64,000 bases of DNA from Flavobacterium taihuense (GTDB taxonomy: Bacteria; Bacteroidota; Bacteroidia; Flavobacteriales; Flavobacteriaceae): contig NZ_JAHWYN010000006.1 in NCBI RefSeq assembly GCF_019351435.1, positions 124,001 to 188,000 of the forward strand. The letters run 5' to 3'. Positions 45,034-64,000 of the stretch are shown here, piece by piece. The position numbers and the translations under genes are program-made. The notes below the pieces were generated by a model. It saw only the letters and a list, made by a program, of their open reading frames with translations. It had not been told where the DNA came from and searched no databases. How positions within the stretch are numbered: the first letter of the stretch is position 1; each line of letters opens with the position of its first letter.

Positions 45034-45357
45034 ATGAAGCCATTTACTTTTGACCAAATACCCGTAATGATGAACAAAATTCATGATAAATTGGAGCATT
45101 TGGAAAAACTTATTGTAAGAATCTCTAATGTAGAAGAAAATAAAGAAGAAGTTCTAAACATTCAAGAAGCATCAAAACTTTTAGACCTATCGGTATCAAC
45201 AATCTATAGTAAAGTATGTAAAAGGGAAATCCCTGTTAATAAACAAGGCAAACGTATTTATTTTTACAGGCATGAGTTGATGAAATGGATTAAGTCAGGT
45301 CGGGTAAAAACTTATTTAGAAATCCAAAATGATATTGAAAAAAGGTCAAAAATCTAA
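45034..45357 (+). CDS. Excisionase-like helix-turn-helix protein
   Basis: A 107-aa protein: a coiled-coil N-terminus (about 10-40), then a MerR/excisionase HTH (LNIQEASKLLDLSVSTIYSKVCKREIPVNKQGKRIYFYRHEL, about 42-83) and a basic tail. It resembles proteins encoded beside integrases or transfer genes. It lies between the decayed integrase and the Wadjet operon. It may regulate the island or be a relic of the element that carried it. Confidence 0.85.
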   Translation: MKPFTFDQIPVMMNKIHDKLEHLEKLIVRISNVEENKEEVLNIQEASKLLDLSVSTIYSKVCKREIPVNKQGKRIYFYRHELMKWIKSGRVKTYLEIQNDIEKRSKI

Positions 45358-45944: not shown

Positions 45945-47264
45945 TTGGAAAGTTTTAATTTATATATAGAAGCCAAAGATCAATACGAGAAATTAGTTCC
46001 GGAAAAAAATGACGGATTAATTATTTTATCGCTCTATGGAAAATATAAAGACAAAGATTTTACAGAAGAGAATATCGTCTCACTCATAAACAAGGTTTTT
46101 AAAGATCAGGGTACTGATTCCACCAGAACAGAACATAACAGGAACAATAACGTGATATTAAGGCTTCAGGAATCTTTTCTTTGGCGTAATGAAATTAAAA
46201 GGACTTATAAATTCAAAAAATACGGACTTGAATTTTGCCAGAGTCTCGAAAAACGTCTTATCGCCAAGTATAATCCTGCTAAGATAAAGAGGTTCTTTGT
46301 TGAGTTATATAACAGTCTTACAACCGCCGTGGAGATTGGAACTAATTTTAATCTGTGGGTAGAAGATCATTTTGACATCAGGATGCCCTCACTCTCTTCC
46401 CAGATTGAAATATTGGATCAGCAGGTTAATGAATCGGTGAGTGACTTTAAACTTACCGTTAAGTCTGAAGGCAGCAATATTCAGGACATTTTAAAACAGA
46501 TTGAAATGGGGCTTGACATTATAAAGGAGCAGGCATCCGAGTTAAGAAATGCATTTCAAATATCATATGACATCGACGAAATCCTCACAGTCATCCTTGA
46601 AAAAAATGAGGCTAGCGGCTACATTGAAAATATAAAGAAAGTCCAGGATTTTCATGACAGTTCCAGAAGCCAGCTCGAACAGGTCAGTAAAAGAATCGAG
46701 AAGATAAAACCTAGGATCAGGGAATTTATATATGATTTTAATAAGCAAGACTTTGATAGAAAAACCAACAAGTTCCTCACTCACATACTGGAGCATTCAA
46801 CGGTCGGAAGACGATCAGGAAATAAATATATTCAATTTCCCAAAGGTATCCCTGTATTTAAGCTAAGAGCGTCGGAAATTATTGCCCGCCTTACTGTAAT
46901 ACCAATAAGGGAAATCAGCCCCAAGGTGCCAATTACCGTATACAAAAGGGAAATTAATATCTCTAAAAGGCAAGATTTAGTTGACAAGACAGTCAGGTGG
47001 AAGTATGAAAAAGAGAGGATAAAATATTGGACAGAGCTTGCATTTTCTCAGCTTGAGCAGGACAGCATCCTGGATTTTACACCTTTTTTCTTTAAAATTC
47101 TGGAAACTGAAAAATTTTCCATTGCTGTAAAAACAGCTCATAACACCCTTAGAAGAAGTGCAGGTTTAAAAAATAAATACAGGATAATAATCAACAAACA
47201 GGCATCTTATACAGGTCAAAATAAAGGTATATCGATATGGCAGATGACAATTCAGAAAAAATAG
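45945..47264 (+). CDS. jetA: Wadjet subunit JetA (MukF/kleisin-like)
   Basis: A 439-aa protein. The only start in frame before residue 140 is TTG at 45945 (an in-frame stop lies 9 bp upstream), so a TTG start is inferred. The N-terminal 100 residues look like a winged-helix domain, the middle (about 150-290) is helical and coiled, and the end is again winged-helix-like. This is the kleisin layout of JetA. DUF3375 of the best-known Wadjet type is not evident, so this is probably another subtype. It overlaps jetB by 28 bp. It would load on DNA with JetB and JetC to recognise and help cut small circular DNA. Confidence 0.75.
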   Translation: MESFNLYIEAKDQYEKLVPEKNDGLIILSLYGKYKDKDFTEENIVSLINKVFKDQGTDSTRTEHNRNNNVILRLQESFLWRNEIKRTYKFKKYGLEFCQSLEKRLIAKYNPAKIKRFFVELYNSLTTAVEIGTNFNLWVEDHFDIRMPSLSSQIEILDQQVNESVSDFKLTVKSEGSNIQDILKQIEMGLDIIKEQASELRNAFQISYDIDEILTVILEKNEASGYIENIKKVQDFHDSSRSQLEQVSKRIEKIKPRIREFIYDFNKQDFDRKTNKFLTHILEHSTVGRRSGNKYIQFPKGIPVFKLRASEIIARLTVIPIREISPKVPITVYKREINISKRQDLVDKTVRWKYEKERIKYWTELAFSQLEQDSILDFTPFFFKILETEKFSIAVKTAHNTLRRSAGLKNKYRIIINKQASYTGQNKGISIWQMTIQKK

Positions 47265-47911
47265 AAAAATATAATTTCCTTTTTGAAAAAAAAGCCCAAT
47301 CAGTCTTCTCCAGATTGGACTATTCTCTAAAAAATGGTATGCATGTCCAGCGGGAATATCCCACAACGCCAGACCTGTACCGCTTTTTAAATGAAAATTA
47401 TATTTCATTGAAACATTACTATAAAGATTTTTTCAATCTTAACCTCTGCAGAGAGGGTAATGAATTCAACCAATATTACTTCCTTGATGTAAACGAAATC
47501 GGAAAAAGTAATGTCCCAGTTGATAATAAGGATTACCTGAAAACTGAACATATTATAATAGGCATGTTATTTCTCAAAATGTTCAAAATGGATGGCAACA
47601 TTGAACTTGACAGCATAACCGAATTTATCACATTGCTTTATGACGAGTATGAAGAAGAAAAGAATGCACTCCGGAAACTAATTAACGACAATTCTTCTGA
47701 TAAAGGTTCAGATTTAAATGACCAGAGATTTGAAGAAACGGTAAAAAAAGCATTTTATAAGTTTGGCGAGCTGGGCTGGCTGATGTGGGATGACGAAGAC
47801 AATAAAAACAAATTCAAAATCATGCCTTCATTTGAAAGGCTGCGTGGTGCCTATCAACCACAGATAGAAACAATAGACGACCTGCTTAAAGAAATGAAAG
47901 ATGTACAATAA
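47237..47911 (+). CDS. jetB: Wadjet subunit JetB (MukE-like)
   Basis: A 224-aa acidic protein, mostly helical, with a two-winged-helix layout: LFEKKAQSVFSRLDYSLKNG at the start, then HIIIGMLFLKMFKMDGNIELD near residue 95 and GWLMWDDEDNKNKFKIMPSFERL near the end (about 186-208). Size and place between the kleisin-like and SMC genes fit JetB (DUF4194-like). It overlaps jetA by 28 bp and jetC by 11 bp. It would act as the kite subunit that binds the kleisin and DNA. The sequence is divergent, so the call leans on gene order. Confidence 0.75.
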   Translation: MADDNSEKIEKYNFLFEKKAQSVFSRLDYSLKNGMHVQREYPTTPDLYRFLNENYISLKHYYKDFFNLNLCREGNEFNQYYFLDVNEIGKSNVPVDNKDYLKTEHIIIGMLFLKMFKMDGNIELDSITEFITLLYDEYEEEKNALRKLINDNSSDKGSDLNDQRFEETVKKAFYKFGELGWLMWDDEDNKNKFKIMPSFERLRGAYQPQIETIDDLLKEMKDVQ

Positions 47912-50900
47912 TTTTCCTAGAATATACAGCTTATCAACCATCGGCATCAAACAACATTTAAATGCCGATTACCTCTTCCATCCTTATCGAACAGATTTCA
48001 GTGGAGAAAGTGGCAGTGGGAAAAGCATGGTTGCCGATATCATACAGCTAATTCTAATAGGTTCAGGTGAATTTAAATCCGCAACAGATGGAAATAAACA
48101 GCGTGATGTGAAAGGAATGCTTCTAGATTTAAAGGGTAAGGCGTCCTCCAGAGGATATGTCTTTTTAAATATCGAGGTTCGTAGTAACAGTTATGTCACC
48201 ATAGGTGCATATATCGAAAGTACAAGCAATGTAGCCGAGATGTTTATCATTCAAAACGGTTATGACTGGGAAGACCTATCCCCTATGAGCGACCCGATAA
48301 TGACTAAGGATCTGATCATTGAAGACAAAATAGAAACCATAAACAATCTTTGTGATAAGTTTAATAAAGCAAGGATGAAGGTATTCAACAGAAAAAAATA
48401 CCACCATATTCTTTATTCGAATGATATCCTGTCCTTAGACTTAACCAAAGACGAAACCCTTAGGACATATGCCAATATATTGAGGTCTTTTTCCAGAGGC
48501 AAAGGTTTTAAGGTCGAATCGGAAAGCATTAAAAAGTTCCTTTTTGGCGATGAAGAGCAGAACAGCATTATGCAAAGGTATTCTGATGAAGTAAATAATA
48601 TTAATAATGATTTTCATGAGCACAGAAGGTTTCAGGAAGAAATCGAACTGATAAATGAGAAAGAGAACCTACTGAAGGTGGTAGTAGAAAAAAATAAAAA
48701 TTTCAAGACGCTTTACAGTGAATACCTAATTAAACGTTTTAACTATTGGACAACAGAACAAAACAATGCTCAAATCCAGTTGCAGACTTCCTCTAAAGAC
48801 TTGGCTCAAAATCAGGTGGAGCATCAGTATATTGAAAATCAGCTTACACAATTACGTATTAATGACTTGGGACAGCTTTTACTAAAAAAGAAAAAAATAG
48901 AAGAAGGTGCACAACTTTCGGATGAGACGATTGCTGAAATAAAAAACAATTACAAAGAAATTCAGAAATTCAAAGAACAGGTAGAAACAGTTGAGAAATG
49001 GATGACTGAAAACGGTAATGAAATTGACGAAGTCAAAAAATGGTATAAGAATCAAAAACAAAACGATGAGAACAAATCAAATGTTTTAAAATTCACATAT
49101 TACCTTAAAAGCAATGGCCTGCTGGATACCTTTGAGGATTCGGCATGGTTTCTTAATTTTGAAGAAGAAGAACAGAAATTTCAAATAGATATAATCACTC
49201 TCGAAGGTAAAATCTCAAATTTGGAATCCTTATCCAAATTCTCAGATATTGCCAATCCTGAATCGCTTTTAAAATGGGCTGTGGAGAACCTGCAATTTCC
49301 TATATCCCATTCGATTGAAAGCATATTGATTTATTTTCAAAAGCTCGACAGGAAGATGCCAAAATTAGAAAGCAGGTATCTGCCTTTTCCAGGTGAGCTC
49401 TTTGAGAATCTTGATATTAAAGATGAAACAGATCTCGGATTTTGGCTCAATCTCGATGGAGTATATGAATATATAGAATATTCAAAGAGTCAGGTTTTGA
49501 ACACTGATAACCCTGATTCTATCACCGGCCCATTATCTGAACTCAAAGGAGGCATTGAATCTGAACTGAAAACTGTTGTTCAGGAAAAGGATCAAAAGAT
49601 AAAATACAAAGATCTGCTGTTTAAGTTCAGTAATCTTCAAGATCACATTATACTTTATAAAAAGAAAGACAGCTTAGTAAATTTCTGCATAGACGAAAGT
49701 ATTGATATTACTGAGAATAGATTTGAACAGTTCATTACTTTATATTCAGATAAAACCAATATTTACAGCCATTACAATTCTCTTCATGGGCAGTATGAAG
49801 ATATTCTAAAACAGGAAGCCTCTTATGAAGAGCAGAAAAGAGCAATTGAAAAATTGGAATCAACACTATTTACTGGCAAAAAAAACATAGCAATTGAAGT
49901 CTTAGAAACGGTAATTGAAACCGAAAAAGAATTACTATTAGAGAAACAAAAACAATTATATACCCAGCTGCTCAAATCAGAAATTAAACTGGCAGATTTA
50001 GAAAACAAATATGGTGATAAAACCAAAACTGGTGATCCAGTAGCTCTATTGGAGCTAAGACACAAACTGGATCTTGAGATAATGCGCCTTGCGAAAAAAA
50101 CTGAAGAAAAAAGCAATTTCATAGCTTCTGCCAAGCTTGAACTAAAAAGTACTGAAGAACTAAATAATGAAATATTCCGGTCAAAAATTAAACTTGATAC
50201 AACTCTCGATGAGCATTTAAATCCTGATGAGGGCGGAAATAATTCCCTTAAAAATAAAGCCGAAATAGCTAAAATATCCTATAACGAGAAACTGAAGTCA
50301 ATTATAGAAAAAATGAGCTATCAAATTGATGAATCAATTTCCATGGGAAAGCTCGCTAGTTTGATGTTACCTACCGTTTTTAAGAGTTCTGCTGTAGATG
50401 AAGATATGATTGCTTCTAATATTGCGGAAAGACTGCATAAGCTTGCCCTTGACATTCAAGAAATCGGTTCAAGAAAAATTGAGATTTTGAGCAGTATTTT
50501 CAATGAAGTATACAAAACGTATTCGGCCCATCTGACAAAAGTCAACGATATAGACGAATACCTGAAAAAAAAGAACAAAGTTATTACTGGAGGAAATCGT
50601 GCATCACTTACAGCGGGTAAATCAATACATTATCCCGAAAGCTGGCTGGGAACCTTTCGGAAACAGCTTGCAAATCAAATGAATAACACCGGTCTGTTCA
50701 CTGAATTGAGAGAAGAAATTGATATTGATAAAATGATGATAAAAGCTTTTCAGAAAATTGGGGGCAGTCCAAAAGTTGAACCTCAGGACCTCATGAACCC
50801 AAAATCTTATTTCGACCTCGAATTTGAATTGAAGCTCGAAAATGGGGAAGCAAACTCAGGAAGCAATGGACAGACCTATACAGCAAATGCTTTATTATGT

Positions 50901-51209
50901 CTGGCCAGGCTTTCGTTGATAGAAGAGAAAAATAAAAAAGGATTAAAAATTATGTCAATTGATGAAGCCGAAGGATTAGGAAGCAATTACGACATGCTGC
51001 ATGAGCTCGCGAAAAAAGAAAATTATCAGATTATCACAATGGCAATCGAAACCGCCGGAGACATTAAAGCCGGCGATCAGTTTATCTATATCATGAACGA
51101 AAATAACCTAGCTGATATGGAAAGTTACGTCCCTCCCCTTGGCATATTTTCCGAAAATATTATTGAAGATATTAATGACTACATAAATTCAATGCCGGAT
51201 GATAAATAA
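47901..51209 (+). CDS. jetC: Wadjet SMC-like ATPase JetC (MukB-like)
   Basis: A 1102-aa SMC-type ATPase. Walker A is GESGSGKS (residues 35-42). Long coiled coils run at about 220-370 and 600-760, with a hinge-like region between. The C-terminal head has a signature-like SGSNGQTYTANALLCLARLSL and Walker B IMSIDEAEGLG. It would extrude DNA loops with ATP and detect small plasmids. It overlaps jetB and jetD by 11 bp each. At this length and with the ATP-binding head split at the two ends, the SMC/MukB-like class is firm. Confidence 0.88.
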   Translation: MYNNFPRIYSLSTIGIKQHLNADYLFHPYRTDFSGESGSGKSMVADIIQLILIGSGEFKSATDGNKQRDVKGMLLDLKGKASSRGYVFLNIEVRSNSYVTIGAYIESTSNVAEMFIIQNGYDWEDLSPMSDPIMTKDLIIEDKIETINNLCDKFNKARMKVFNRKKYHHILYSNDILSLDLTKDETLRTYANILRSFSRGKGFKVESESIKKFLFGDEEQNSIMQRYSDEVNNINNDFHEHRRFQEEIELINEKENLLKVVVEKNKNFKTLYSEYLIKRFNYWTTEQNNAQIQLQTSSKDLAQNQVEHQYIENQLTQLRINDLGQLLLKKKKIEEGAQLSDETIAEIKNNYKEIQKFKEQVETVEKWMTENGNEIDEVKKWYKNQKQNDENKSNVLKFTYYLKSNGLLDTFEDSAWFLNFEEEEQKFQIDIITLEGKISNLESLSKFSDIANPESLLKWAVENLQFPISHSIESILIYFQKLDRKMPKLESRYLPFPGELFENLDIKDETDLGFWLNLDGVYEYIEYSKSQVLNTDNPDSITGPLSELKGGIESELKTVVQEKDQKIKYKDLLFKFSNLQDHIILYKKKDSLVNFCIDESIDITENRFEQFITLYSDKTNIYSHYNSLHGQYEDILKQEASYEEQKRAIEKLESTLFTGKKNIAIEVLETVIETEKELLLEKQKQLYTQLLKSEIKLADLENKYGDKTKTGDPVALLELRHKLDLEIMRLAKKTEEKSNFIASAKLELKSTEELNNEIFRSKIKLDTTLDEHLNPDEGGNNSLKNKAEIAKISYNEKLKSIIEKMSYQIDESISMGKLASLMLPTVFKSSAVDEDMIASNIAERLHKLALDIQEIGSRKIEILSSIFNEVYKTYSAHLTKVNDIDEYLKKKNKVITGGNRASLTAGKSIHYPESWLGTFRKQLANQMNNTGLFTELREEIDIDKMMIKAFQKIGGSPKVEPQDLMNPKSYFDLEFELKLENGEANSGSNGQTYTANALLCLARLSLIEEKNKKGLKIMSIDEAEGLGSNYDMLHELAKKENYQIITMAIETAGDIKAGDQFIYIMNENNLADMESYVPPLGIFSENIIEDINDYINSMPDDK

Positions 51210-52152
51210 AAAAATTACATGGAAAGAGCTCAAAGCATTAGACGACATTTATCATCTTAAAAAAACTAAGGCTGCTATTCAGGGACATCCGTATATCAAT
51301 TATCTAATAAATGATAAAGGTATTCTTGATTTAAAAAGGGATAACATAAAAGTTATTATTTCAACTGAAGGTTTTGAAGAATTCTATGAGAAAGAATTTA
51401 AATTGCAGTATGACGAGGCAAAAAGCTTTTTAGAAAATAATGGTATTGAAGCCAATGCCAAAAAAAACTTTACGCTGGAAGAGGTAAAAACCTTAATGCT
51501 TATCGAAGAAAATAAAGAGGAACTAAAAAGTAAACCGACCAATATTGAGGATTTTTCCAACGAGTTTTTTGATATTTCGAAATACTTAAAAAACAAAACT
51601 GGGCTCAGAAATGCTGTTTTCAAAATTTTAGACATAACCCAATTTCCCCTAGATAAAAAGGAAAACCAATGGAGAATTGTCGTAGACAGGCAGAATCCTG
51701 ATGCTGTTGTACTTTGTGAAAACAAGTCGTTTTTAAAACAGACTTGGATTGCCAAAAGTACCAACGTAAAGTTATGGTATGTGGGTGGCAACAATATAAA
51801 AATCCTTGACGACATCGATGAAATTGAATTGGCTAAACCATTCTATTATTGCTGCGATTGGGATTTGGCAGGATTAGAAATTTACGAGAGAATAAAAAAG
51901 AAATTAAAGCTAAGAAATAAGGATATAGTCCTGCTCTACCCCAATGAGCCACATAAAAAAATAAGCACCTACATAGAGTATCACGACAGCCACTGGAATT
52001 TAAACAAGATATTATCTGGGTTACAGATTGGAAATTTCAACAAAAAGGAATTACAGCTTATACAGGATCTTATTAAGAATGAACAGTGGATTGAAGAAGA
52101 ATCTTTTGATCTCATTCAAATACTAAAGGTAGTATTATTAATAAAACAATAG
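51199..52152 (+). CDS. jetD: Wadjet nuclease JetD (Toprim/TopoVI-A-like)
   Basis: A 317-aa protein. The C-terminal Toprim-like part has LCENKSF (Glu174) and YCCDWDLAGLEIY (Asp220, Asp222), the metal-binding Glu and DxD residues that cut DNA in JetD. The N-terminal part (about 1-130) is helical and binds the complex. It is shorter than typical type I JetD (about 390 aa). It overlaps jetC by 11 bp and closes the operon. It should cleave plasmids stalled by the SMC ring. Confidence 0.85.
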   Translation: MINKKITWKELKALDDIYHLKKTKAAIQGHPYINYLINDKGILDLKRDNIKVIISTEGFEEFYEKEFKLQYDEAKSFLENNGIEANAKKNFTLEEVKTLMLIEENKEELKSKPTNIEDFSNEFFDISKYLKNKTGLRNAVFKILDITQFPLDKKENQWRIVVDRQNPDAVVLCENKSFLKQTWIAKSTNVKLWYVGGNNIKILDDIDEIELAKPFYYCCDWDLAGLEIYERIKKKLKLRNKDIVLLYPNEPHKKISTYIEYHDSHWNLNKILSGLQIGNFNKKELQLIQDLIKNEQWIEEESFDLIQILKVVLLIKQ

Positions 52153-52377
52153 ATTAGATGTCACATCCATTCTAGTACTTTTATCATTCTTTTTATTTCT
52201 TAACATTACTCTTACATATAACTTTATAATTTTGCATTAAACAACTTCCATGAGTGTATGTTGTCTTGATAAGGATATTTTGTTTTGCGATAGTTTGCTT
52301 TAAATTGTACCATAATTCTACCACTGAAGTTTAAACTCTAGTAAAGTAATCGTCTCTTATACAACATTTTTAGTAAA

Positions 52378-54045
52378 TCAAAAAGGCAAATCATCCGGCT
52401 CTTCCATAGCATCATCATAAAAATTAGATTCGCTTTCTGTTTCACCTTCCAGATTTGAATAATATTTCTCGATCATTTTTACTTCGTTACTAAAACCATC
52501 TTTTTCCAAATTTTCTAATAATTCCTTACGACCGATTATAGTTTTTGATTTGGCAGATCTAAATGTACTATTTTCCATCTCTTCTATAAACTCTTTAGTA
52601 TTTTTCCAAAAACCTGCCGACGTGATAAAAATGGCTTTAATCTTAAGATTTTTGGAATTTTTATCCTTATAATATTCTTTTGCAAGCCCCATAGATTTAT
52701 TAAAAAACCATTTTAAAGTAGCTTTAGTATCAATGTCACCTAATGAAACAAATGTTCCGTCACGTAGTCCTTTTAGCTCAACAAAAACTAATTCCGCAGG
52801 ATGAGTTGAAGTAATTACATAATCAAACTCATGTTTACGCTGACCCATTTTTAAAATTACATTCTGTTCAAATCCCGCACGAGGGTATAAAGAACTTAGG
52901 TAGCCAAACATTAAGTACTCAAATAATGTACCTCTAAGATCTTTTAAGGCCCCCTCCTGCCCTGAACTTTTTATCGTCTCTAAAATGGATTCTACTGATT
53001 GATCTAAATTTTGATCATTTTTTAAAAGAAGAGGCAGCTGACTGGATTTTCTTATTATTTCATAAATTTTAGATCCGAAAATCGCACTTATATTAAAAGA
53101 TATTATTCCATTTTTTCTCATGGTAAAGAATACTTCTTTACTGCATTCACGATAAATAATTACAGGTAAAGTTTTTCTTTTTTCACTTTTTACAGAATTA
53201 ATATTTATTTGAATTCTGGCTAAAAATGCATTAAGATGAATATGAGAATATTCCGTTGCTAGTACAACATCCAAAACCACTAAAGTTTGTTTTTCTTTGG
53301 AATCCGCTTTTGCTCCTAATATTTCATTTATCCCAGTACTTTTAGAATATGCATAAGCGTCCCAAAATAAATTATTATGTATTGTACCCATTCCTGGGTT
53401 AGATTTATTCCGATAAATAAAAGATGCATTATCAATTATATTTGAATTTACAAGCCAATTCATGATATCAGGCATCAAGCTACAATCAATTATCATTTTT
53501 TGATGATGAATGCTTATTTTTAAATTTTCCTCAGGCTTATCAAGCACCTGGCTAAATTCTTTTTGTATTATAAACCGATTATTGTTTTTATCTCTTTTTT
53601 CATAAACAAAATCTAATCTACTCAACACCTTTATAATATCATCCAATGAACTAATTTTTGTCGAATTATCTTCATTAGGTGCCGCAGTTATTTTTAAAGC
53701 TTCGTAATATGAAACGATACCATCATTTATTTGGAGCAATACAATTAACCTGTATATAGGTGGTCTAGACTTTTCTACTATTTTTTTAACAGCTTCAATA
53801 TCTAATAAATATGTATTGCAATAATAAATGAATTGACCGTTACCAAACGTAGATGGTTTAGAAGATGTAATAATGCTTTTGGTTACGGCCCTACCAACAA
53901 TTTTTCTAGCATTATCAGGCGTAACTGAAAATTTAGCTATTAATTTCTCGTGAACATCTTTCGCTGAAAGAAATAAATGTTCGTGAAGAAGGACACTAAG
54001 AAATGTATTATAGTTGTCTTGCGCTGTTAATTTTTTATTTTCCAT
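52378..54045 (-). CDS. Winged-helix/PD-(D/E)XK nuclease-like protein, unassigned
   Basis: A 555-aa protein not assigned to a known family. The N-terminus (about 20-60, LFLSAKDVHEKLIAKFSVTPDNARKIV) looks like a winged-helix DNA-binding region. The middle is mixed alpha/beta. Residues about 370-425 look like a PD-(D/E)XK nuclease core: LRGTLFEYLMFG, then HEFDYVI (Asp about 407) and LVFVELKG (Glu-x-Lys about 421-423). The C-terminus is acidic. It stands alone, convergent with jetD and divergent from Gabija, inside the defence island. A single-gene restriction or abortive-infection nuclease is inferred. Confidence in the nuclease core is moderate; the role is unproven. Confidence 0.6.
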   Translation of the reverse strand: MENKKLTAQDNYNTFLSVLLHEHLFLSAKDVHEKLIAKFSVTPDNARKIVGRAVTKSIITSSKPSTFGNGQFIYYCNTYLLDIEAVKKIVEKSRPPIYRLIVLLQINDGIVSYYEALKITAAPNEDNSTKISSLDDIIKVLSRLDFVYEKRDKNNNRFIIQKEFSQVLDKPEENLKISIHHQKMIIDCSLMPDIMNWLVNSNIIDNASFIYRNKSNPGMGTIHNNLFWDAYAYSKSTGINEILGAKADSKEKQTLVVLDVVLATEYSHIHLNAFLARIQININSVKSEKRKTLPVIIYRECSKEVFFTMRKNGIISFNISAIFGSKIYEIIRKSSQLPLLLKNDQNLDQSVESILETIKSSGQEGALKDLRGTLFEYLMFGYLSSLYPRAGFEQNVILKMGQRKHEFDYVITSTHPAELVFVELKGLRDGTFVSLGDIDTKATLKWFFNKSMGLAKEYYKDKNSKNLKIKAIFITSAGFWKNTKEFIEEMENSTFRSAKSKTIIGRKELLENLEKDGFSNEVKMIEKYYSNLEGETESESNFYDDAMEEPDDLPF

Positions 54046-54473
54046 CTGTCACACTGCCCTTATAAATTTTATTTTTAAATAGAGTTCAAGGCTCGCTTTT
54101 TTTTATCAAGCTGAATATTAAAAACATAAATTTCTGATTTACAGTACTTTGGTTTTTTAAAACCTTTAATATATTACTAATTTTGTTGCTTATTAAAATT
54201 TAAGTTGTCCGAAAGTACGTTAAATTAATAATATTTCTATGCATAAAAAATATATAATAGTAGTTTTTATTAATATAAGTATAAAAGAATTAATAAAACG
54301 CTGGAGTTATATTTCTAATGATTTAGTTCAATTATTTTTCGTCAAGTAAAAAAGCCACTAGGTGCTTAAATAGATCCTCAAAATTCATCGAGTTAGTATT
54401 TTCTAGCCATCTGCGGATTCAAAATATTATTTAAAAATACGGATTTTCGTAAAAAAGAGCCTGACAAAACAAC
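54046..54473. other. Divergent AT-rich intergenic region
   Basis: Between the 555-aa nuclease gene and the Gabija operon. No gene or clear repeat is seen apart from the minus-7 element at its right end. Confidence 0.4.
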
Positions 54474-54481
54474 TATATTTG
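54474..54481 (+). promoter_or_regulatory. Minus-7 element of the Gabija operon
   Basis: TATATTTG, an exact TAnnTTTG match, implies a start near 54487. This places an in-frame TTG at 54483 before the mRNA start and supports ATG 54537 as the gajA start. No clear TTG lies at the usual upstream distance. Confidence 0.5.
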
Positions 54482-54536
54482 TTTGTATCACAAGTTCAAA
54501 AGGACACAACAATTAACTAACCCAGAATTATTAAAA

Positions 54537-56609
54537 ATGTATATATCACAAATCGAAATAAAAAACTTTAGAAACTTCAAAGAATGTGAAATTCAGTTTA
54601 ATGAAGGAGTAAATGTGATTATAGGTCACAACAATGCTGGGAAAACAAATCTGCTAAAAGCACTTTCTTTAATAATTGATCACAAAACTTCTAAAAGGCT
54701 GGAAACAGACGATTTTAATAAATTGATATCAATAGATGATCTTAAAAAAGCTCCTCCAAAGATTAGTATTGCAATCAAGATCAATAAAGGCCCTAATGTT
54801 GAACCTGATGACCTTGTTACTATCGGTAACTGGTTAACCAAACTTGATTCCTCCTATGAAGCCCTCCTTACCTACGAATTTTTCCTTCCTGAAAAAGAAA
54901 TCCCCCATTATCTTAGCGCTATAAATGCTATAACAGAAACTGATGAAATAAAAGCTGTGGAAAAAGCCTGGAAAATCATTAAACATGATTTTATACGTCT
55001 TTTTACCCACAAAATCTGGGGCGGTGAAATTTCAAATCAAGCAGTAGCTGACAGCGACTCTCTTCAAAAATTTGATTTTCAATTCTTAGATGCGATTAGG
55101 GATGTTGAAAGAGATATGCTTACAGGCAGGAATACACTTCTGCGTGATGTATTTGATTTTTTCATGGACTATGAAATAAAAAATGAGCCAGAAGCTACTA
55201 AACCAAAAAGTGCAAAAATTGCAGAAATAAAAGCACGCAAAATTGATTTTTCTGACAAAGCGGATGAGTTAATCGAAATGCTGCAGAAACGCATGGAACA
55301 AGGTAAAGAACAAATACTATCATATGCTAATGTAACAGGAGCATCCTTTAATGAGGCTAAACCAAACTTTGAAGGAAGTATAAGCGATGTTGAGATGTTT
55401 TCAGTACTAAAACTAATCGTAGAGTACAAGAGCGGAATTAAAATTCCAGCCACTCACAATGGTTTAGGATACAATAATTTGATCTATATGTCACTCTTAC
55501 TTGCAAAAATGCAAGTCAACTCAAATGGTTCCTATATGGGAAGTAATGCAAAGGTTTACGCAACTTTAGCAATTGAAGAACCAGAAGCACATTTACATCC
55601 GGCAATGCAATACAAGTTTTTAAAATTTCTAAAGCAAAACAGAAAAGAAAGGAAAGTAAGGCAGATTTTTGTTACTTCACACTCTACCAATATAACCTCT
55701 GCAGTCTCATTGGACGAAATAATATGCCTGCATTCAGAAAATGGAATCACTTCAGTTGGGTACCCTGGGAAAGTTTTCCCAGATGATAAAAGTAAAAAAT
55801 ATGTACAGCGCTTTTTAGATGCCACAAAATCTGATATGCTGTTTGCAAAAAATGTGATATTGGTTGAAGGTCTTGCGGAACAATTATTAATGTCAGTTTT
55901 TGCGCAATATGAGAAGGAATCGTTAGAAGATAATCATACTGTAGTCATTAATGTTGGCGGACGTTTCTTTGATCACTTCCTGCACTTGTTTGACAGTACA
56001 AAACCAAATACAATCCATAAGAAAATTGCCTGTATCACAGATAGAGATCCAGAAAGCAAAATTATACTTAATGGCAAGTTTAAAAAATGTTATCCTTATG
56101 AATACAATCTGGATCCATCAACATATGAATATAAGTTCAATTCTTCTGCATTAAAATATCCAGCGGGAACACATCCTAACATTAGCTTCTTCACACAGGA
56201 TGAAACGAAGGGAAAAACTCTAGAATATGACTTGTTACTTACCAATCCAACATCAGAATTATTATTAACCCCTTCGATAAGTAATCAAGATGAAATCTTA
56301 AAACTAATGCAACTATATTCTGAGGGAAAAAAGCCAACTGATTTACTAGTTGCTTTACGCTCTAGTACAGAAAATGACAGAATTATATCAAGTATCAACA
56401 TCGCTGATACTACCACATGGGATGACGACATAAAAATGAGAGCAATTATAGCATCACGTTATTTAAACTCTGTCGGGAAAGGTGAAAATGCATTAGAATT
56501 ATCTTATGCATTATTGGAAAATCTGGACTTGCTAGGTAAACCTGAATATAAGAATTTTATAGTTCCCGATTATATAAAAGAAACAATCGCCTGGATATGT
56601 CAAAAATAG
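54537..56609 (+). CDS. gajA: Gabija nuclease GajA (OLD-family ATPase with Toprim)
   Basis: A 690-aa OLD-type protein from ATG 54537. The N-terminal ABC ATPase has the start MYISQIEIKNFRNF, Walker A GHNNAGKT (30-37) and Walker B LAIEEPEAHLHP. The Toprim part has ILVEGLAEQ (Glu about 444) and CITDRDPE (Asp-x-Asp about 502). It cuts DNA when nucleotide levels drop during phage infection, in a complex with GajB. It is longer than the type GajA (about 580 aa), with an insert near residues 190-250. It overlaps gajB by 13 bp, as in Gabija operons. The pairing of OLD with UvrD makes Gabija the best reading. Confidence 0.9.
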   Translation: MYISQIEIKNFRNFKECEIQFNEGVNVIIGHNNAGKTNLLKALSLIIDHKTSKRLETDDFNKLISIDDLKKAPPKISIAIKINKGPNVEPDDLVTIGNWLTKLDSSYEALLTYEFFLPEKEIPHYLSAINAITETDEIKAVEKAWKIIKHDFIRLFTHKIWGGEISNQAVADSDSLQKFDFQFLDAIRDVERDMLTGRNTLLRDVFDFFMDYEIKNEPEATKPKSAKIAEIKARKIDFSDKADELIEMLQKRMEQGKEQILSYANVTGASFNEAKPNFEGSISDVEMFSVLKLIVEYKSGIKIPATHNGLGYNNLIYMSLLLAKMQVNSNGSYMGSNAKVYATLAIEEPEAHLHPAMQYKFLKFLKQNRKERKVRQIFVTSHSTNITSAVSLDEIICLHSENGITSVGYPGKVFPDDKSKKYVQRFLDATKSDMLFAKNVILVEGLAEQLLMSVFAQYEKESLEDNHTVVINVGGRFFDHFLHLFDSTKPNTIHKKIACITDRDPESKIILNGKFKKCYPYEYNLDPSTYEYKFNSSALKYPAGTHPNISFFTQDETKGKTLEYDLLLTNPTSELLLTPSISNQDEILKLMQLYSEGKKPTDLLVALRSSTENDRIISSINIADTTTWDDDIKMRAIIASRYLNSVGKGENALELSYALLENLDLLGKPEYKNFIVPDYIKETIAWICQK

Positions 56610-58297
56610 AAATAACATCAGAAACTAGGCTGAACAATATCGAACAGCACTTTAGGGTTTCAGCGGGACCAGGAGCGGGAAAAACACATTGGCTATGCGA
56701 ACATATAAAAAATGTTTTACATCATTCAGCTCGCTTGGAAAAAACCAGAAAAATAGCCTGTATAACATATACAAATACAGCTGTCGAAACTATTCTTTCC
56801 AGATTAGGGACATCAGCAGAACGGGCAGAAATTGCAACAATTCACAGTTTTTTATATAATCACATTATAAAACCCTATGCACCTTTTATTGCAGGAGAGT
56901 ATGGATTAAACCTTTCAGAGGTTGATGGTCACGACGATACTATTCTTTCTAACTTTGGGTTTATCAATGACTGGAAAACCAGAACTTCACAGCAACGAAT
57001 CAGGGAGGATCATTTAATATTAAAAGCATTTCATGCTATCAAATGGAAGTTTGATACCAGTGGGGATTTAGTTGCCACTACAGATTATCCGCATAAAGTT
57101 GGCAGCTATTCAATCAAAAAATCATCTTATCTCGATTATAAAAAAATGGCATGGGGAAAAGGTGTTTTGCACCACGACGATGTGCTTTTTTTCAGTTTTC
57201 AGATAATTAAAAAATTTCCCTTCGTACTAGAGATACTCAGGTCAAAATTCCCTTATATTTATATAGATGAATTTCAAGACAGTAGCCCTATCCAAGTCGA
57301 AATTTTTAGAAATATTGGGCTTAAAGAAAGTAAAATTGGAATTATTGGCGATCAGGCACAGTCCATATATAAATTTCAAGGTGCTGATCCTACTCAGTTC
57401 ATGCTTTTCAACCTTCCAGGCATGATTGATTACATAATGAAAGAAAATAGAAGAAGTACAAATGAAATCATTGAAGTTCTTAATATAGTTAGAAAAGATA
57501 TAATTCAGGAAAAATACAGGAACGAATCTGATTCAAAACCACTTATTATCGTAGGTAATCTTGCTGATGCTTCGCAAAAAATCAGACATTTATGTGCCGC
57601 TGAACCTGTATACTCTCTCTCAAGAGATAATATAACTGCAAATTTGATGAAAAAACAAATAAGAGGCTTTCATGATGCAAAACTTTTCGAAAAACTGGCT
57701 GATAACGATAAACCAGGAAGCGGTAATAAATATAGAAGTACAATTGTCGCGATTTGTATAAAAGCAGTCGAATATGCCAGAGAAGGTAAATTCAAAGATG
57801 CAATAAAGGAAATGCAGAAGGAGTTTAAAACAAAAACTGATCCTACGATTGGCAGAAGGAAGAGCTTGGATTTTATTGTATTGCTGCTTTCTAATTATGA
57901 AACCTATAAAGACATCTCCTTATACGCCTTCTTTACATTCGTCAAGCAAAACATAAAACCTGAAATCTCAGATTTAAGAAAGGGCAGCGCGAAAAGCTTT
58001 TATGAAGATCATACTTATCAGCAGATGGCATTATGTGTAAAAATACCTGAAGATTTAAGTCGTGACAAAACAATACATAAAGCCAAAGGCGATGAATTTG
58101 CTAATGTTTTATTAATTCTGCCAGAAGAAAAGGATTTGTCTTTCTTACTCAACCCAGACACACAGAACAATGAAGAACATAGAATAAATTATGTTGCAGT
58201 AAGCAGGGCAAAGAACAAACTTTTTATTTCTGTCCCCAGTTTAGATGCCACAAATAGAACCACATTAGAACCACATTTTGAAATTGAAACCCTTTAG
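56597..58297 (+). CDS. gajB: Gabija helicase GajB (UvrD-like)
   Basis: A 566-aa SF1 helicase-like protein. Walker A is GPGAGKT (24-30). Further motifs are ITYTNTAVETI, YIDEFQDSS (Walker B), GDQAQSIYKFQGAD, KENRRS, TIHKAKGDEFANVLL and YVAVSRAKNKL. This is a full set of UvrD-family motifs. In Gabija it senses DNA ends or nucleotides and activates GajA. It overlaps gajA by 13 bp and is followed after 60 bp by a small nuclease-like gene. Confidence 0.9.
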   Translation: MSKIEITSETRLNNIEQHFRVSAGPGAGKTHWLCEHIKNVLHHSARLEKTRKIACITYTNTAVETILSRLGTSAERAEIATIHSFLYNHIIKPYAPFIAGEYGLNLSEVDGHDDTILSNFGFINDWKTRTSQQRIREDHLILKAFHAIKWKFDTSGDLVATTDYPHKVGSYSIKKSSYLDYKKMAWGKGVLHHDDVLFFSFQIIKKFPFVLEILRSKFPYIYIDEFQDSSPIQVEIFRNIGLKESKIGIIGDQAQSIYKFQGADPTQFMLFNLPGMIDYIMKENRRSTNEIIEVLNIVRKDIIQEKYRNESDSKPLIIVGNLADASQKIRHLCAAEPVYSLSRDNITANLMKKQIRGFHDAKLFEKLADNDKPGSGNKYRSTIVAICIKAVEYAREGKFKDAIKEMQKEFKTKTDPTIGRRKSLDFIVLLLSNYETYKDISLYAFFTFVKQNIKPEISDLRKGSAKSFYEDHTYQQMALCVKIPEDLSRDKTIHKAKGDEFANVLLILPEEKDLSFLLNPDTQNNEEHRINYVAVSRAKNKLFISVPSLDATNRTTLEPHFEIETL

Positions 58298-58357
58298 AAT
58301 CAATTTAGGACAATAAAAATTAATAAATAATTTAAATTAATTCGAATAAACAAATTA

Positions 58358-59059
58358 ATGACAAGTAAGGAGCGATCGACTATTCAAGAAAACATTGTAA
58401 AATTATATCTTAGGCTAAATGGATATATTACTACTGGTTTAATTATACATTCTTCAGAAAAGAAAATCTCAGGAGAAATTGATATTATTGCCGTTAGATT
58501 TCCTTATCATACCCAAAGTGATACAGAACATAATTCTTCTGAGTATATGGAAATTCCGGAAACAATTGATGTAATCATTGGTGAGGTAAAAAGTCATGGC
58601 ATTTCATTAAAATTTAATAAGTCATTAAGAAATGAAAGCCTGATCCCATTGAGTAAAGCAATTAAATGGATAGGGCTTTTCAAAGAGGAACAAATACCTG
58701 AGATTGCCCAAAAGTTACTTATATTAATCAAGCCTGTGGAAAACTCAAATAAAACATCGTTTAGTTCACTTATAATAAAAACAGAATTTGGTCTGATTTC
58801 AATCAGACCTATTCTATTTAGTCCCGAAAGCATTACCAATGTTTCCAATATTAATAAATTTGTTGGCTGGCAGGAAATCAATGATTTTTTATGGAGTTGT
58901 CTGTGTCCCTCAAATATAAGAGAGGAATGCGGCACCAGATACGATTTTAGTGCTTGGGGACCAGGACTGAGTGAAATAGTAAAAGCATATAAAGATAGAC
59001 AACGTTTACAAAACAGATTTACTAATATTATCGAATTATATAACGATATAAATCTTTAA
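58358..59059 (+). CDS. Small PD-(D/E)XK-like protein, possible Gabija accessory
   Basis: A 233-aa protein. Residues 10-80 resemble a restriction-endonuclease-like core: ENIVKLYLRLNGYIT, GEIDIIAVR (Glu40, Asp42) and VIIGEVKSHG (Glu76-x-Lys78). The remainder has WGPGLSEIVKAYKDRQR near the end and no known family. It is the third gene in the Gabija direction (60 bp after gajB, no terminator seen), so it may be cotranscribed. Gabija normally has two genes. It may be an extra nuclease, a regulator, or an independent system. Confidence 0.6.
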   Translation: MTSKERSTIQENIVKLYLRLNGYITTGLIIHSSEKKISGEIDIIAVRFPYHTQSDTEHNSSEYMEIPETIDVIIGEVKSHGISLKFNKSLRNESLIPLSKAIKWIGLFKEEQIPEIAQKLLILIKPVENSNKTSFSSLIIKTEFGLISIRPILFSPESITNVSNINKFVGWQEINDFLWSCLCPSNIREECGTRYDFSAWGPGLSEIVKAYKDRQRLQNRFTNIIELYNDINL

Positions 59060-59186: not shown

Positions 59187-62100
59187 ATGAAAAACATGGG
59201 AAAGAAAAATAATGATAGTACAATACGTGAAGTTGCTACAGCGAAGCAAACAGGCGGCGGCGGATTTGTATTTGAAGGTAAAGCAGCAGCATGGTTTATT
59301 ACACATTTTCTAGCAGATGAATTTCCATTCACTCCTGAAATGGGGAAAATTAAAAGAATTGGGTTTCAGGTAAGGCCTGAGGGCTGGCTGTTTGATGACC
59401 TACTACTTACACTTGAAAATATTGATGGTGACATTAGTGTTGGCATTTCAAGCAAAAGTAATATACAGGTAAACACTAAAGGTCCTACAGAGGATCTACT
59501 GAATGACATTTGGAACCAATATTTAGGTACAGATTCAAATGTATTTAATCCTCTAAAAGACTATTTATGTATTGTAAGTGCACCACTTCCAAAAGGTGTT
59601 GCTAACAACCTAAACGATTTGATTACGTCTTCAAGAACTATGGATACAGCGATATTTTGTGATAGAATTTCAAAAGATGGAAAAGGATTTTCAAAATCTA
59701 AGCAGGATTTATTTAATTCGTTCCGTTGCCCTTCAGCTTTGGCAACCAAAAATAATATCAAACAATACGATATTGTAAACGTTTTAAGCAGATTACTATT
59801 GCTCGAATTCGACTTCCAGAATGATACTTCAAAAGACGTTTCCACTATTATTTCTTTGGGAAAAACTTGCCTCAAAAATCCTAATGAGCAAAATGAAGTC
59901 AGACTATACGAATCAATGTGCGCCATCCGCTCAGAACTGGCTCCTACAAGCGGTTTTCTAGATTATAGTGGACTGGTAAATAGATTCAGATACCAATATG
60001 ATTTGATTGGCTACCGGAATCATGCCACCGACTGGAAAAGAATTTGGGAAGCCAGCATGGCCAGAGTCAATTCCATACCAGATAAAATCGGCGGTAAGAT
60101 CAGTTTGCCGATGGACGATCAAGTTAAATCCCTAAAAACCCAATTAACCAAGAATAATGTGGTATTTGTTCTAGGCAAATCAGGTTACGGTAAATCAGTA
60201 CTGGCCAAAAAATTCATTGAAGCTGAAACTGATGATGATTCAAATTTTCTATGGATTGATTCTCAAAGTGTGGGGCATGGAAATCTTAAACAATATTTTG
60301 GCCTTGAAAACAGCATTTCTGATATTTTAAAAAATGTGCAAAAGCCAGTTTCTTATTTGATTATTGATGGAATTGACAGGTTTTTCAAGGAAGAACAATT
60401 AAGCGTATTATATGAAATCCTTGATATTGCCATTGAGCCAGAATCTGGTTGGAAGCTTATCTTTACCTGCCAAACCGACGATTATAGTGATGTGATTGAA
60501 CGTTTGTACCGGATAAATATTCCTTTAAATGCAGTAGACTTTAAAGTCGATCTAGATGTGTATAAACATCTGACTGAACTCAGGAAACATTTCCCCGGGC
60601 TATCAGATTTATTTAAGCATGAACATTTGAGAAGCGTTCTTAATAACCTAAAATACCTTGATCTCATGGCCTTTAAGTTATCGGCCGGTTTGCAAATATC
60701 AGATAACGACCTTTTAGGCGAAACTACTTTGATTGACTGGATATGGAAAGAAGAAATTGACAGTATTGGCGCTGCCAATGCAAGGCTGTTGCAAGATTAT
60801 GCGGAAAAGCAAGCGGAGCGTTTTTCGGTTAGCATTCCTGTTGTGGATTTCACTGTTGCCGAACTGGCATATCTCGATGCGCTAATGCAACGGAAAATCA
60901 TGTATGTTGTTGACGACAAACTTTACCTGACGCACGATTTGTTTGGAGATTGGGCCAGGTATAAGCTGATCCGATCTAATAGCAAAAACCTTAATGCATA
61001 CCTCCTATCTAAAGAATTGGGATCCTCTCTTTGGCGCAAAGCCATTCGTCTATATGGAATGTACCTACTTGATAAGAACGATAAAGGTGCATCATGGATT
61101 GCATTTTTCAAAAGCCTTGCTACCCATGAACCAAAGGAAAAAATTATACAAGATTTATTGCTCGAATCTATTTTATTCTCTGCTTCAACGGGCGTGCATT
61201 TAATTACGCTGTTCGATTTCCTGAAAGAAGAAGAAGGCGCCTTATTCAAAAGATTTTTGGAGCAATTTTTGCTAAAGGCCACGCTACCGAATCAGGGGAT
61301 AATGAAAATCATTAAAGATATACCGGGTATTACAATCGCAGAAGCAGCTTCCTATCACAGGATACCCAATTATCTATATTGGCCACAGCTTATCCAATTC
61401 CTTTTTGACCACAAGAGAGAGGTCATTGAGCTTTCAAGGAAACGGGTAGCCTTAATTTGTGAAATGTGGCTCAACAATACCGCGGTTGGTTTCCCATACC
61501 GCAAAAAAATGGCTGCGATTGCACTTGAAAATGCCAACGTCATGTTTGTCTATAAACATGAAGGAACTTACGTTCGTGATGATGTAGATGAAGTTATTTA
61601 CAAAGCTTTTCTAGCGGGAATCAACGAATATCCTGACGGAGTCATTGAATTGGCATTGAAACTGTGTAAGCGAATCAGGGTTGAACATAAACCAAAAGCT
61701 GAAGAAATCGACAGTGATTTCATTTCGGATGAACGGCCGCGGTCACTCTTTTCCATGATGAAAATACGAGATAAAGTTCAATGGTCTGACGGGCCTTATG
61801 AAAACCCTGATGATGCTTTTGAAAAAATTTGCATTAACAGCGATGCAATTAATCCTTTAATTTTGGCGTGTCCCGAAAAGGCGAAAGAAATTTTGCTGGC
61901 ATTGTTTATTGAACCACCAAGGGAAATTTCATACGGATTTGATTCGAGCCATTACCATCTCGATATCAATGAGCCAACACAATGGTTCCCTCCATTTTAC
62001 AATAGGGGGCCATTTTTGTTTTTCCTGAAAAATCAGCCGTTGGTTGGATTACGGTTTGTCATTAGCCTGATAAACTTTGCCTGCAAGCAATGGACAAACG

Positions 62101-64000
62101 ATTATACGCACAAACAAAAAGCAATACCAAAGCTAGCGATTGAATTCCCAGATGACAAGCATGAATATATTGGTGATTCGAGGATGTATTTTTGGTATCG
62201 CGATCACGGTCAGTGCTCACATGCTATTGTCAGTGCATTACAGGCCTTGGAAAAGTTCCTGATTGATGCCAGTGATAATGATGGTCCTGTTTGTGGTTTT
62301 GTTGACATTGTTTTAAAAGAGGGCAATTCGACAGCTTACCTCGGCGTGATTAATTCTGTAGGCAGATATAACCCTAGTTTGTATTTGACAGTATTAAAAC
62401 CATTGTTACAAGTGCTGGAATTCTATTTATGGGAAAAGGATCTGGATTACGGTGCTTTCGGTATTGAAGGACACCAAATGATGGGTTCTAATTTTTTTGA
62501 CAAAACCACTTTAAAACTAGCAAAAAAATGGCATGATTTGCCTCACCGCCGAAGATCAATCAACAGCACTGCACTAATCTTATACATGAACAATCCTGAG
62601 ATTCAGGAATACTTTGTGCCTATAGTTACGAAGTGGACAACCATTCTAAGTGAAATTGAAGCACAGGGTGAAACTTTCCCTTACCTGACGCGGCTCATTA
62701 CCTTTTTCAATATAGAAAATTACGAATCTAAAAATGATGGCAAACAGACCTACTTTGAATACAAAGAACCTAAAGCAATTACCGCCGAATTTGAGCATGC
62801 TCGCGCGGAAATGCAGGTGGACCATGACCTCCATTTATTTCCTTTTAGGTGCCTACAGGATATCGAAAAAGGCATACAATATGACTTGGCACAAAGCGAG
62901 GCACTGTGGAAGTCAATTCAGGAAATTGCTGTAACTAACGACGAAGACCCGTACGAGTCCTTTAGCGGAAAACACAAATCCGTATTGGGTGGATGCGCTG
63001 TTTTACTTTACAATAAAGAAAGCTGGATTTCGAAACATCCGGAAATTACAGGCTGGACGGTTGCCTACATTGAACAAGCATTGGACGGTTATCAAACCGA
63101 CTCTTATGGCAGGGCGCAGGCGGACATTGGTGATTCATGGACAGCATTTACAGCTCGCACCTTGGGAATACTATGGTCAGAGAAACCTAACGACAAGCAG
63201 TTAAGAAGACTAACAGGCCAACTTATTTTAAAATCACCATACGATACCGCGAATGTTTTATTCGCAGTGATTTCTAAAAATTTAAACTGGTCTGACGCAA
63301 ATTTTGTACAAGTCCAAAATTTCCTTATACTATTTAGCATTGGGTTCGATAGGAATTATTCCTTAAACAGCCCCAGATATCTACAGTTTAATCAAGAAGA
63401 AGAAGAAGAAGAAACCTTGATGCTACGCTTCTTGAAATTTACCGGACTTGCTCAATTTATAAAACAAGAAACGAAGGGATTCGATCTTGATAAATATAAT
63501 AATAGGATATTAAAAGACTTTATCAATAATAAAACCCCAAGTGAACTATTAACGTGGTCGAAACTGCGACTTTCCATTCCTAAAACAAGACAGCATTGGA
63601 GGTATAATGATAACGATACCGTTGGGAATGATTCCGGATTGGATAAAAAAATGTTACAGCATGCCTTTGTATCAATACCTTCCTTAGACGGGCTCATTGC
63701 CACAGACCGAAAGCATTTGCTTATATTCTGGAAACAGGTGTTGGAACAAATAACATTTGAATTGGGTGAAATCAATGAGAAACCCAGACAGCATGATAAC
63801 TATCCACACGCTTTTGATATATGGTCAATGGAAAAGATAGCGAGAGTTGTATTGGATATCGAATCAGATGATGTATTCACTACTAAAAGTTTTTGGCAAC
63901 CGATATTTGCTTACGGATATCTCGCCAATGAATGGATTGACCGGTTCTTACTGTATTATTTCCTAAATGGTACTGAAAAAAAAGTAACCGCAGACAGGTT
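59187..64000 (+). CDS. Large STAND/Avs-like NTPase with N-terminal nuclease-like domain (C-terminus outside window)
   Basis: The frame is open from ATG 59187 (or 59196) to the right edge, more than 1600 residues with no stop. Residues 20-100 resemble the Cap4/DUF4297-type nuclease region found at the head of Avs proteins: GGGGFVFEGKAAAWF (23-37), an Asp-Asp pair (70-71) and GISSKS (86-91), where the usual Gln-x-Lys is Ser-Ser-Lys. A P-loop domain follows, with GKSGYGKS near residue 330 and Walker B YLIIDGIDRF near residue 390. The rest is a long helical array, as in sensors of phage proteins. A large anti-phage NTPase that binds a viral protein and then cuts DNA is inferred. The exact subfamily cannot be fixed. 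Confidence 0.7.
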   Translation, partial: MKNMGKKNNDSTIREVATAKQTGGGGFVFEGKAAAWFITHFLADEFPFTPEMGKIKRIGFQVRPEGWLFDDLLLTLENIDGDISVGISSKSNIQVNTKGPTEDLLNDIWNQYLGTDSNVFNPLKDYLCIVSAPLPKGVANNLNDLITSSRTMDTAIFCDRISKDGKGFSKSKQDLFNSFRCPSALATKNNIKQYDIVNVLSRLLLLEFDFQNDTSKDVSTIISLGKTCLKNPNEQNEVRLYESMCAIRSELAPTSGFLDYSGLVNRFRYQYDLIGYRNHATDWKRIWEASMARVNSIPDKIGGKISLPMDDQVKSLKTQLTKNNVVFVLGKSGYGKSVLAKKFIEAETDDDSNFLWIDSQSVGHGNLKQYFGLENSISDILKNVQKPVSYLIIDGIDRFFKEEQLSVLYEILDIAIEPESGWKLIFTCQTDDYSDVIERLYRINIPLNAVDFKVDLDVYKHLTELRKHFPGLSDLFKHEHLRSVLNNLKYLDLMAFKLSAGLQISDNDLLGETTLIDWIWKEEIDSIGAANARLLQDYAEKQAERFSVSIPVVDFTVAELAYLDALMQRKIMYVVDDKLYLTHDLFGDWARYKLIRSNSKNLNAYLLSKELGSSLWRKAIRLYGMYLLDKNDKGASWIAFFKSLATHEPKEKIIQDLLLESILFSASTGVHLITLFDFLKEEEGALFKRFLEQFLLKATLPNQGIMKIIKDIPGITIAEAASYHRIPNYLYWPQLIQFLFDHKREVIELSRKRVALICEMWLNNTAVGFPYRKKMAAIALENANVMFVYKHEGTYVRDDVDEVIYKAFLAGINEYPDGVIELALKLCKRIRVEHKPKAEEIDSDFISDERPRSLFSMMKIRDKVQWSDGPYENPDDAFEKICINSDAINPLILACPEKAKEILLALFIEPPREISYGFDSSHYHLDINEPTQWFPPFYNRGPFLFFLKNQPLVGLRFVISLINFACKQWTNDYTHKQKAIPKLAIEFPDDKHEYIGDSRMYFWYRDHGQCSHAIVSALQALEKFLIDASDNDGPVCGFVDIVLKEGNSTAYLGVINSVGRYNPSLYLTVLKPLLQVLEFYLWEKDLDYGAFGIEGHQMMGSNFFDKTTLKLAKKWHDLPHRRRSINSTALILYMNNPEIQEYFVPIVTKWTTILSEIEAQGETFPYLTRLITFFNIENYESKNDGKQTYFEYKEPKAITAEFEHARAEMQVDHDLHLFPFRCLQDIEKGIQYDLAQSEALWKSIQEIAVTNDEDPYESFSGKHKSVLGGCAVLLYNKESWISKHPEITGWTVAYIEQALDGYQTDSYGRAQADIGDSWTAFTARTLGILWSEKPNDKQLRRLTGQLILKSPYDTANVLFAVISKNLNWSDANFVQVQNFLILFSIGFDRNYSLNSPRYLQFNQEEEEEETLMLRFLKFTGLAQFIKQETKGFDLDKYNNRILKDFINNKTPSELLTWSKLRLSIPKTRQHWRYNDNDTVGNDSGLDKKMLQHAFVSIPSLDGLIATDRKHLLIFWKQVLEQITFELGEINEKPRQHDNYPHAFDIWSMEKIARVVLDIESDDVFTTKSFWQPIFAYGYLANEWIDRFLLYYFLNGTEKKVTADR

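Follow-up and report, generated by a model that had tools for sequence, protein, structure and literature searches.

A PD-(D/E)XK-like gene behind gajB in a Flavobacterium defence island is probably a passenger beside an ordinary Gabija pair

Gabija pairs GajA, an ABC ATPase with a Toprim nuclease domain, with GajB, a UvrD-like helicase. In Bacillus cereus, GajAB is described as a 4:4 complex that is essential for defence (PMC10781630), and a preprint proposes that the system acts on linear DNA free of RecBCD (PMC12407980). The word 'accessory' is absent from the main texts of both papers, no third Gabija gene appeared in the literature searched on Gabija and a third gene (PMC11706625 in the portion consulted, PMC11302039 by title), and among the matches listed for GajC all were unrelated by title.

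We analyzed a 64,000-nucleotide stretch of a Flavobacterium taihuense contig (hereafter the window) in which a small gene follows closely behind gajB. The original prediction took this gene, which we call X, to be a possible accessory nuclease of a three-gene Gabija system. Here we compare X, the neighboring genes, and the loci of their relatives across the genus and phylum.

A canonical Gabija pair in a multi-system defence island

The features of the locus, in window coordinates, are as follows.

45034–45357, plus strand: gene for an HTH_17 protein, recurring in islands of the window and of a second genome, G520
45945–52152, plus strand: four-gene Wadjet-like/Mks-like module with MksE, JetC and JetD_C matches
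52225–52333, plus strand: copy of a ~120-bp repeat (nhmmer), one of four copies used to build the model
52365–59059, no strand assigned: block D-gajA-gajB-X, 88.9% identical in G520
52378–54045, minus strand: D, 555 aa, divergent from gajA, a defence-island protein of an unnamed family with conserved E376, D408 and E423-L-K425
54537–56609, plus strand: gajA, OLD-type ABC ATPase with a Toprim domain, 690 aa (PDLC00069, AAA_15, OLD-like_TOPRIM, PDB GajA chains)
56597–58297, plus strand: gajB, UvrD-like helicase, 566 aa (PDLC00119, UvrD-helicase, PDB GajB chains)
58358–59059, plus strand: X, 233 aa, with a PD-(D/E)XK-like motif (E11, D42, E76-x-K78) seen in alignments and a weak PADLOC PD_DExK match
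59187–64000, plus strand: gene for an Avs4-like STAND protein (PDLC02169, E 3e-32), running past the window end

GajA matches the PADLOC model PDLC00069 with 990 bits across residues 1–689, and GajB matches PDLC00119 with 735 bits across residues 3–564. GajA contains the ABC ATPase and Toprim domains that define its family (AAA_15, E 1.9e-40; OLD-like_TOPRIM, E 1e-12), GajB contains the helicase domain (UvrD-helicase, E 2.5e-34) in a gene that adjoins gajA, and the PDB relatives of the two proteins include GajA and GajB chains. The reading frames of gajA and gajB share 13 bp, in agreement with the predicted overlap. Gene order, overlap, full-length matches, and the combination of a nuclease-ATPase with a UvrD-like helicase are thus those of described Gabija systems, and, judged from its sequence, the system is intact, canonical and composed of two genes. 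It differs from described Gabija in the slightly greater length of GajA (690 aa, compared with 575–675 residues in the solved chains) and in the third gene behind gajB.

The locus as a whole is a multi-system defence island, with the order HTH_17, Wadjet/Mks-like module, D, gajA, gajB, X and Avs4-like gene. Within the Wadjet-like module, the second gene matches MksE, the third matches JetC (E 1.2e-10), and the fourth matches JetD_C at a level under the cut-off (E 0.0029); no domain match was found for the first.

X and the block in which it travels

As originally described, X encodes a 233-aa protein containing GEIDIIAVR and GEVKS and starts 60 bp past the gajB stop codon, and no terminator-like site was found in the 60-bp gap between the two genes. 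Proteins of the PD-(D/E)XK superfamily carry a glutamate in the first helix, an aspartate after a hydrophobic stretch and an E-x-K on the next stretch. The corresponding residues of X, E11, D42, E/D76 and K78, occur in this order. All four are retained in five of five rows of an alignment (A4) that includes a protein from an Aquincola plasmid; in a second alignment, of five X-family genes (A3), E11 falls in a gap in the shortened copy from genome G697, and the other three positions are retained. Common to both alignments are R19-L20, G22, I29, H31, D42, R47, P49, V77-K78 and N87. The four predicted catalytic positions persist in the family down to ~20% identity. X resembles the superfamily in this layout but falls outside every Pfam, NCBIfam and PHROGs family: no significant match was found in these collections or in the PDB, none of five X-family members had a Pfam match, and the PADLOC PD_DExK model matched just one of the five, X, and that weakly (E 0.015, residues 9–80). 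On the strength of the motif, X looks like a PD-(D/E)XK-type nuclease-like protein.

Window positions 52365–59059 align with G520 at 88.9% identity over 6702 columns. The similarity stops at the X stop codon, beyond which the sequence of G520 differs, and at the other end of the block the HTH_17 gene of G520 lies directly beside D, without the Wadjet-like module. When 204 kb of the contig containing the window was compared with 199.5 kb of G520 (similarities of at least 150 bp, E 1e-15), the other similarities consisted of island repeats and a 1.3-kb HTH-gene unit alone. The flanks share almost no sequence, so the surroundings of the block differ between the two genomes, and X travels with gajAB as one block in both. 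The X proteins of the window and G520 are 86.7% identical with a dN/dS of 0.117, which marks X as a genuine gene and one that purifying selection maintains. Synonymous divergence between the two genomes is similar along the block (dS of 0.43 for gajA, 0.52 for gajB and 0.54 for X), as is dN/dS (0.07, 0.10 and 0.12, respectively), indicating that X has kept pace with Gabija under selection.

X-family genes and gajB neighbors in other genomes

Searches of 100 relatives found X in the window alone, and among 395 phylum genomes the only accepted match was again the window, with four others (E 0.004–0.007) not accepted. We then ran a two-row X profile over 398 genus genomes, leaving out three weaker matches (E 0.006–0.008). 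A match of E 5.4e-4 from another search, covering 55 residues of an 896-aa frame, was likewise left uncounted. X-family genes were present in five of the 398 genomes: the window, G520 (~87% identity to X), G736 (37–39%), G635 (26–30%) and G697 (30–33%). Of the four unaccepted phylum matches, those in G174 and G235, re-read at loci L039 and L040, were rejected by their sequence as response regulators with a LuxR-type end, which is what we take this domain combination to be, and those in G378 and G217 have stops inside the frame. A plasmid search with four queries found one protein, the distant homologue from Aquincola (E 8e-3, 46% of the query covered, 20% identity in A4), which retains the E, D, E and K. 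No confirmed X was found in a genome-contig collection and phages queried with X, or in viral contigs queried with X, A2, A3 and the Aquincola protein; the reach of these pattern scans is limited, so the rarity of X is not proven by them. X thus belongs to an unnamed family of small nuclease-like proteins in five genus genomes and, distantly, one betaproteobacterial plasmid.

The members of this family differ in their relation to Gabija. In G520, X starts 50 bp after gajB. Using blastp of ORFs (E 1e-3), no GajA or GajB relative was found in the 19 kb around the X-family gene in G736 or G635, or on the entire 19.3-kb contig that carries the gene in G697, a shortened copy with an internal stop. 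Judged by eye, the neighbors in G736 include presumed gatB, gyrB and other housekeeping genes, and those in G635 include what is presumably a hydroxyanthranilate dioxygenase. Elsewhere in these genomes, a GajA-like match (E 9e-43) lies on a different contig from the X-family gene in G736, and G697 has a weak partial GajA match (E 2e-9); no GajA match was found in G635. The family therefore lies mostly away from Gabija, narrowly and on small numbers (three of five X-family genes, 398 genus genomes), a distribution that the original prediction had named as telling against it. Strong GajA matches (E 1e-60 or better) occur in 22 of the 398 genus genomes, window included, and in two of the five genomes with X compared to 20 of the 393 others (Fisher p 0.026, in a test that treats two 398-genome samples as one and counts two positive genomes that share one block and so are non-independent).

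To survey what follows gajB, as the original prediction had proposed, we read 24 other gajB loci. The genus contributed 21 and the phylum search three, and in one of these three gajB occupies two ORFs. In the phylum survey, the GajB model at E 1e-40 matched 128 of 395 genomes, and the control was matched in 4 of 14; besides the window, three genomes scored above 490 bits and were read, and the rest, at 171 bits or less, were taken as UvrD-type helicases and dropped. A GajB query of the genome-contig collection gave no match, so the survey rests on the genome search. The absence of X was checked by tblastn at 23 of the 24 loci and by blastp of its ORFs at L111. X was missing at 23 of the 24, close relatives included, so X is not a constant third gene behind gajB; Gabija systems without X have GajA/GajB identities to the window of 84/77%, 72/61% and 63/55%.

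A co-directional gene lies within 100 bp behind gajB at 10 of the 24 loci (all ten within 50 bp), and these ten genes fall into nine families: X (one), HEPN/RES (two), calcineurin-like phosphoesterase (one), PDC-M62A/PtuA-like ATPase (one), DUF5677 (one) and no clear family (four). For comparison, a co-directional gene lies within 100 bp behind 148 of 275 genes of any kind, and within 60 bp behind 126 of 275, as counted on ORFs of at least 150 aa in 403 kb of two genomes with a crude ORF-calling procedure rather than a gene finder. The 10 of 24 does not exceed this base rate (binomial P(≥10) 0.92), and the closeness of X to gajB, together with the missing terminator, is weak evidence of a functional link. 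A neighbor of this kind is easily misread as an accessory gene, given that the close followers of gajB are of nine kinds and no closer than the base rate.

At two of these loci, genes 30 and 37 bp behind gajB (L068:6299–7495 and L069:6143–7324) encode proteins that are 75% identical; the first has HEPN/RES domains, and the second is assigned by that identity. At L036:7988–12769, gajB is followed after 13 bp by genes for a calcineurin-like phosphoesterase and for a large protein of the P-loop type, which by eye presumably resemble SbcD and SbcC. In G064 (L038:8058–9813), gajB is in two separate ORFs, and gajA is open.

Origin and possible roles of X

We consider it likely, with a probability of roughly 0.6, that X is an autonomous, nuclease-like passenger that a mobile defence block picked up on a single occasion, beside an ordinary Gabija. 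Three genomes hold X-family genes at a distance from Gabija, which makes a passenger likelier than a third part of Gabija. X would have come to lie behind gajB and thereafter moved with D-gajA-gajB as one block. It would be transcribed from the gajAB promoter and would cut nucleic acid, probably acting alone on invading or host DNA and not inside the GajAB complex, while Gabija would work as published, with a 4:4 GajA-GajB complex attacking foreign DNA. X then most likely acts as a nuclease of its own that is co-expressed with gajAB, though it may also cooperate with GajAB. Counting against this reading are the persistence of the link between X and gajAB since a dS of ~0.5, which would not be required of a neutral passenger, the co-occurrence of X with strong GajA at the genome level, and, for the fold of X, the lack of a significant profile or PDB match and the low pLDDT of 33 in a single-sequence AlphaFold model.

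X could instead be a lineage-specific Gabija accessory, a second nuclease that works on DNA opened or nicked by GajAB and so widens or sharpens the response. A block conserved up to the X stop codon, the matched divergence and purifying selection of X and gajAB, the nuclease motif, and the shared strand with a terminator-free gap all fit this idea, which we nevertheless hold to be unlikely: the Gabija relatives with GajA/GajB identities of 84/77%, 72/61% and 63/55% lack X, X-family genes elsewhere occur apart from Gabija, and there is just one independent association of X with Gabija. The three-gene reading is thus partly supported. The moving block in two genomes and the purifying selection speak for it, and the 23 of 24 loci without X, the three of five X-family genes elsewhere and a closeness at the base rate speak against it. 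As for the proposed accessory nuclease, the PD-(D/E)XK motif layout agrees with the second word, and a third Gabija component is unsupported.

A different reading, quite improbable in our estimate, is that D-gajA-gajB-X is one of several complete defence cassettes swapped, integron-like, at a shared ~120-bp site beside HTH_17, with X now a working third Gabija nuclease. The site in question is the repeat that lies before D in window coordinates. The model was built from four copies, at 52225–52333, 66276–66420 and 125837–125979 (window numbering; the second and third lie outside the window, in L115 and L118) and one after X in G520. Further clear copies were found by nhmmer, another in G520 and one at L080:3142–3274 (genome G566), along with a weak match at 134345–134394; the G520 copies lie at C1 2580190–2580328 and 2599524–2599639. 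The repeat was not found in 29 of 30 other loci searched. It holds two TTGTACCA-like words and sits at several defence-module borders with HTH_17-type genes nearby.

The repeat is possibly a recombination site. The order in G520 is HTH_17, then D-gajA-gajB-X, then the repeat, in an island beside what we take by eye to be mnmE. At a second locus on the window contig, which also carries a tyrosine integrase, the repeat comes within ~80 bp after the HTH_17 gene, with no gene between. These two loci would look like a filled and an unfilled arrangement if they are orthologous. In the window, the repeat copy precedes D, and the interval from X to the Avs4-like gene yielded no copy. At L080, a different Gabija and D adjoin the repeat, fragments of the second HTH gene and the HTH_17 gene seen here (94%). 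The island is the better lead, as its repeats permit a direct test of whole-system cassette exchange in the genus.

X might also be a catalytically silent DNA-binding or immunity protein that, for example, shields host DNA or tunes GajAB. The lack of a significant family or PDB match, the PADLOC E of 0.015 and a single-sequence AlphaFold model with a pLDDT of 33.2 are consistent with such a protein, but all four positions expected to be catalytic persist in relatives with as little as about 20% identity, and we regard a silent X as very improbable.

Slightly less probable again is that X and D, as PD-(D/E)XK-like proteins at the two ends of the block, form a defence pair of their own that has enclosed Gabija. 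Each belongs to the block and retains the D and E-x-K residues, yet no X was found near D in five of the seven genomes with D, no D was found near the X-family genes of G736, G635 and G697, and D is broken into two ORFs in G520, where X is open. Of 199 genus genomes, seven carry D; it adjoins Gabija in three (window, G520 and G566) and other genes, several of them defence-like by eye, in four. We considered D as the true Gabija partner and, given its occurrence away from Gabija in four of seven genomes, rejected it as Gabija-specific. At one of these four, locus L105, an 867-aa protein adjoining D resembles GajB weakly and locally (E 2.9e-5, 47 residues), with no GajA found there.

That X belongs with the downstream Avs4-like gene, which is on the same strand with its ATG 127 bp from X, has next to no chance of being right, as it is contradicted by G520, where X closes the block and is not followed by an Avs4-like gene. 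A 440-aa gene, for which no Pfam match was found, follows the Avs4-like STAND gene; the two lie in 59187–64000 and L115:1–1870.
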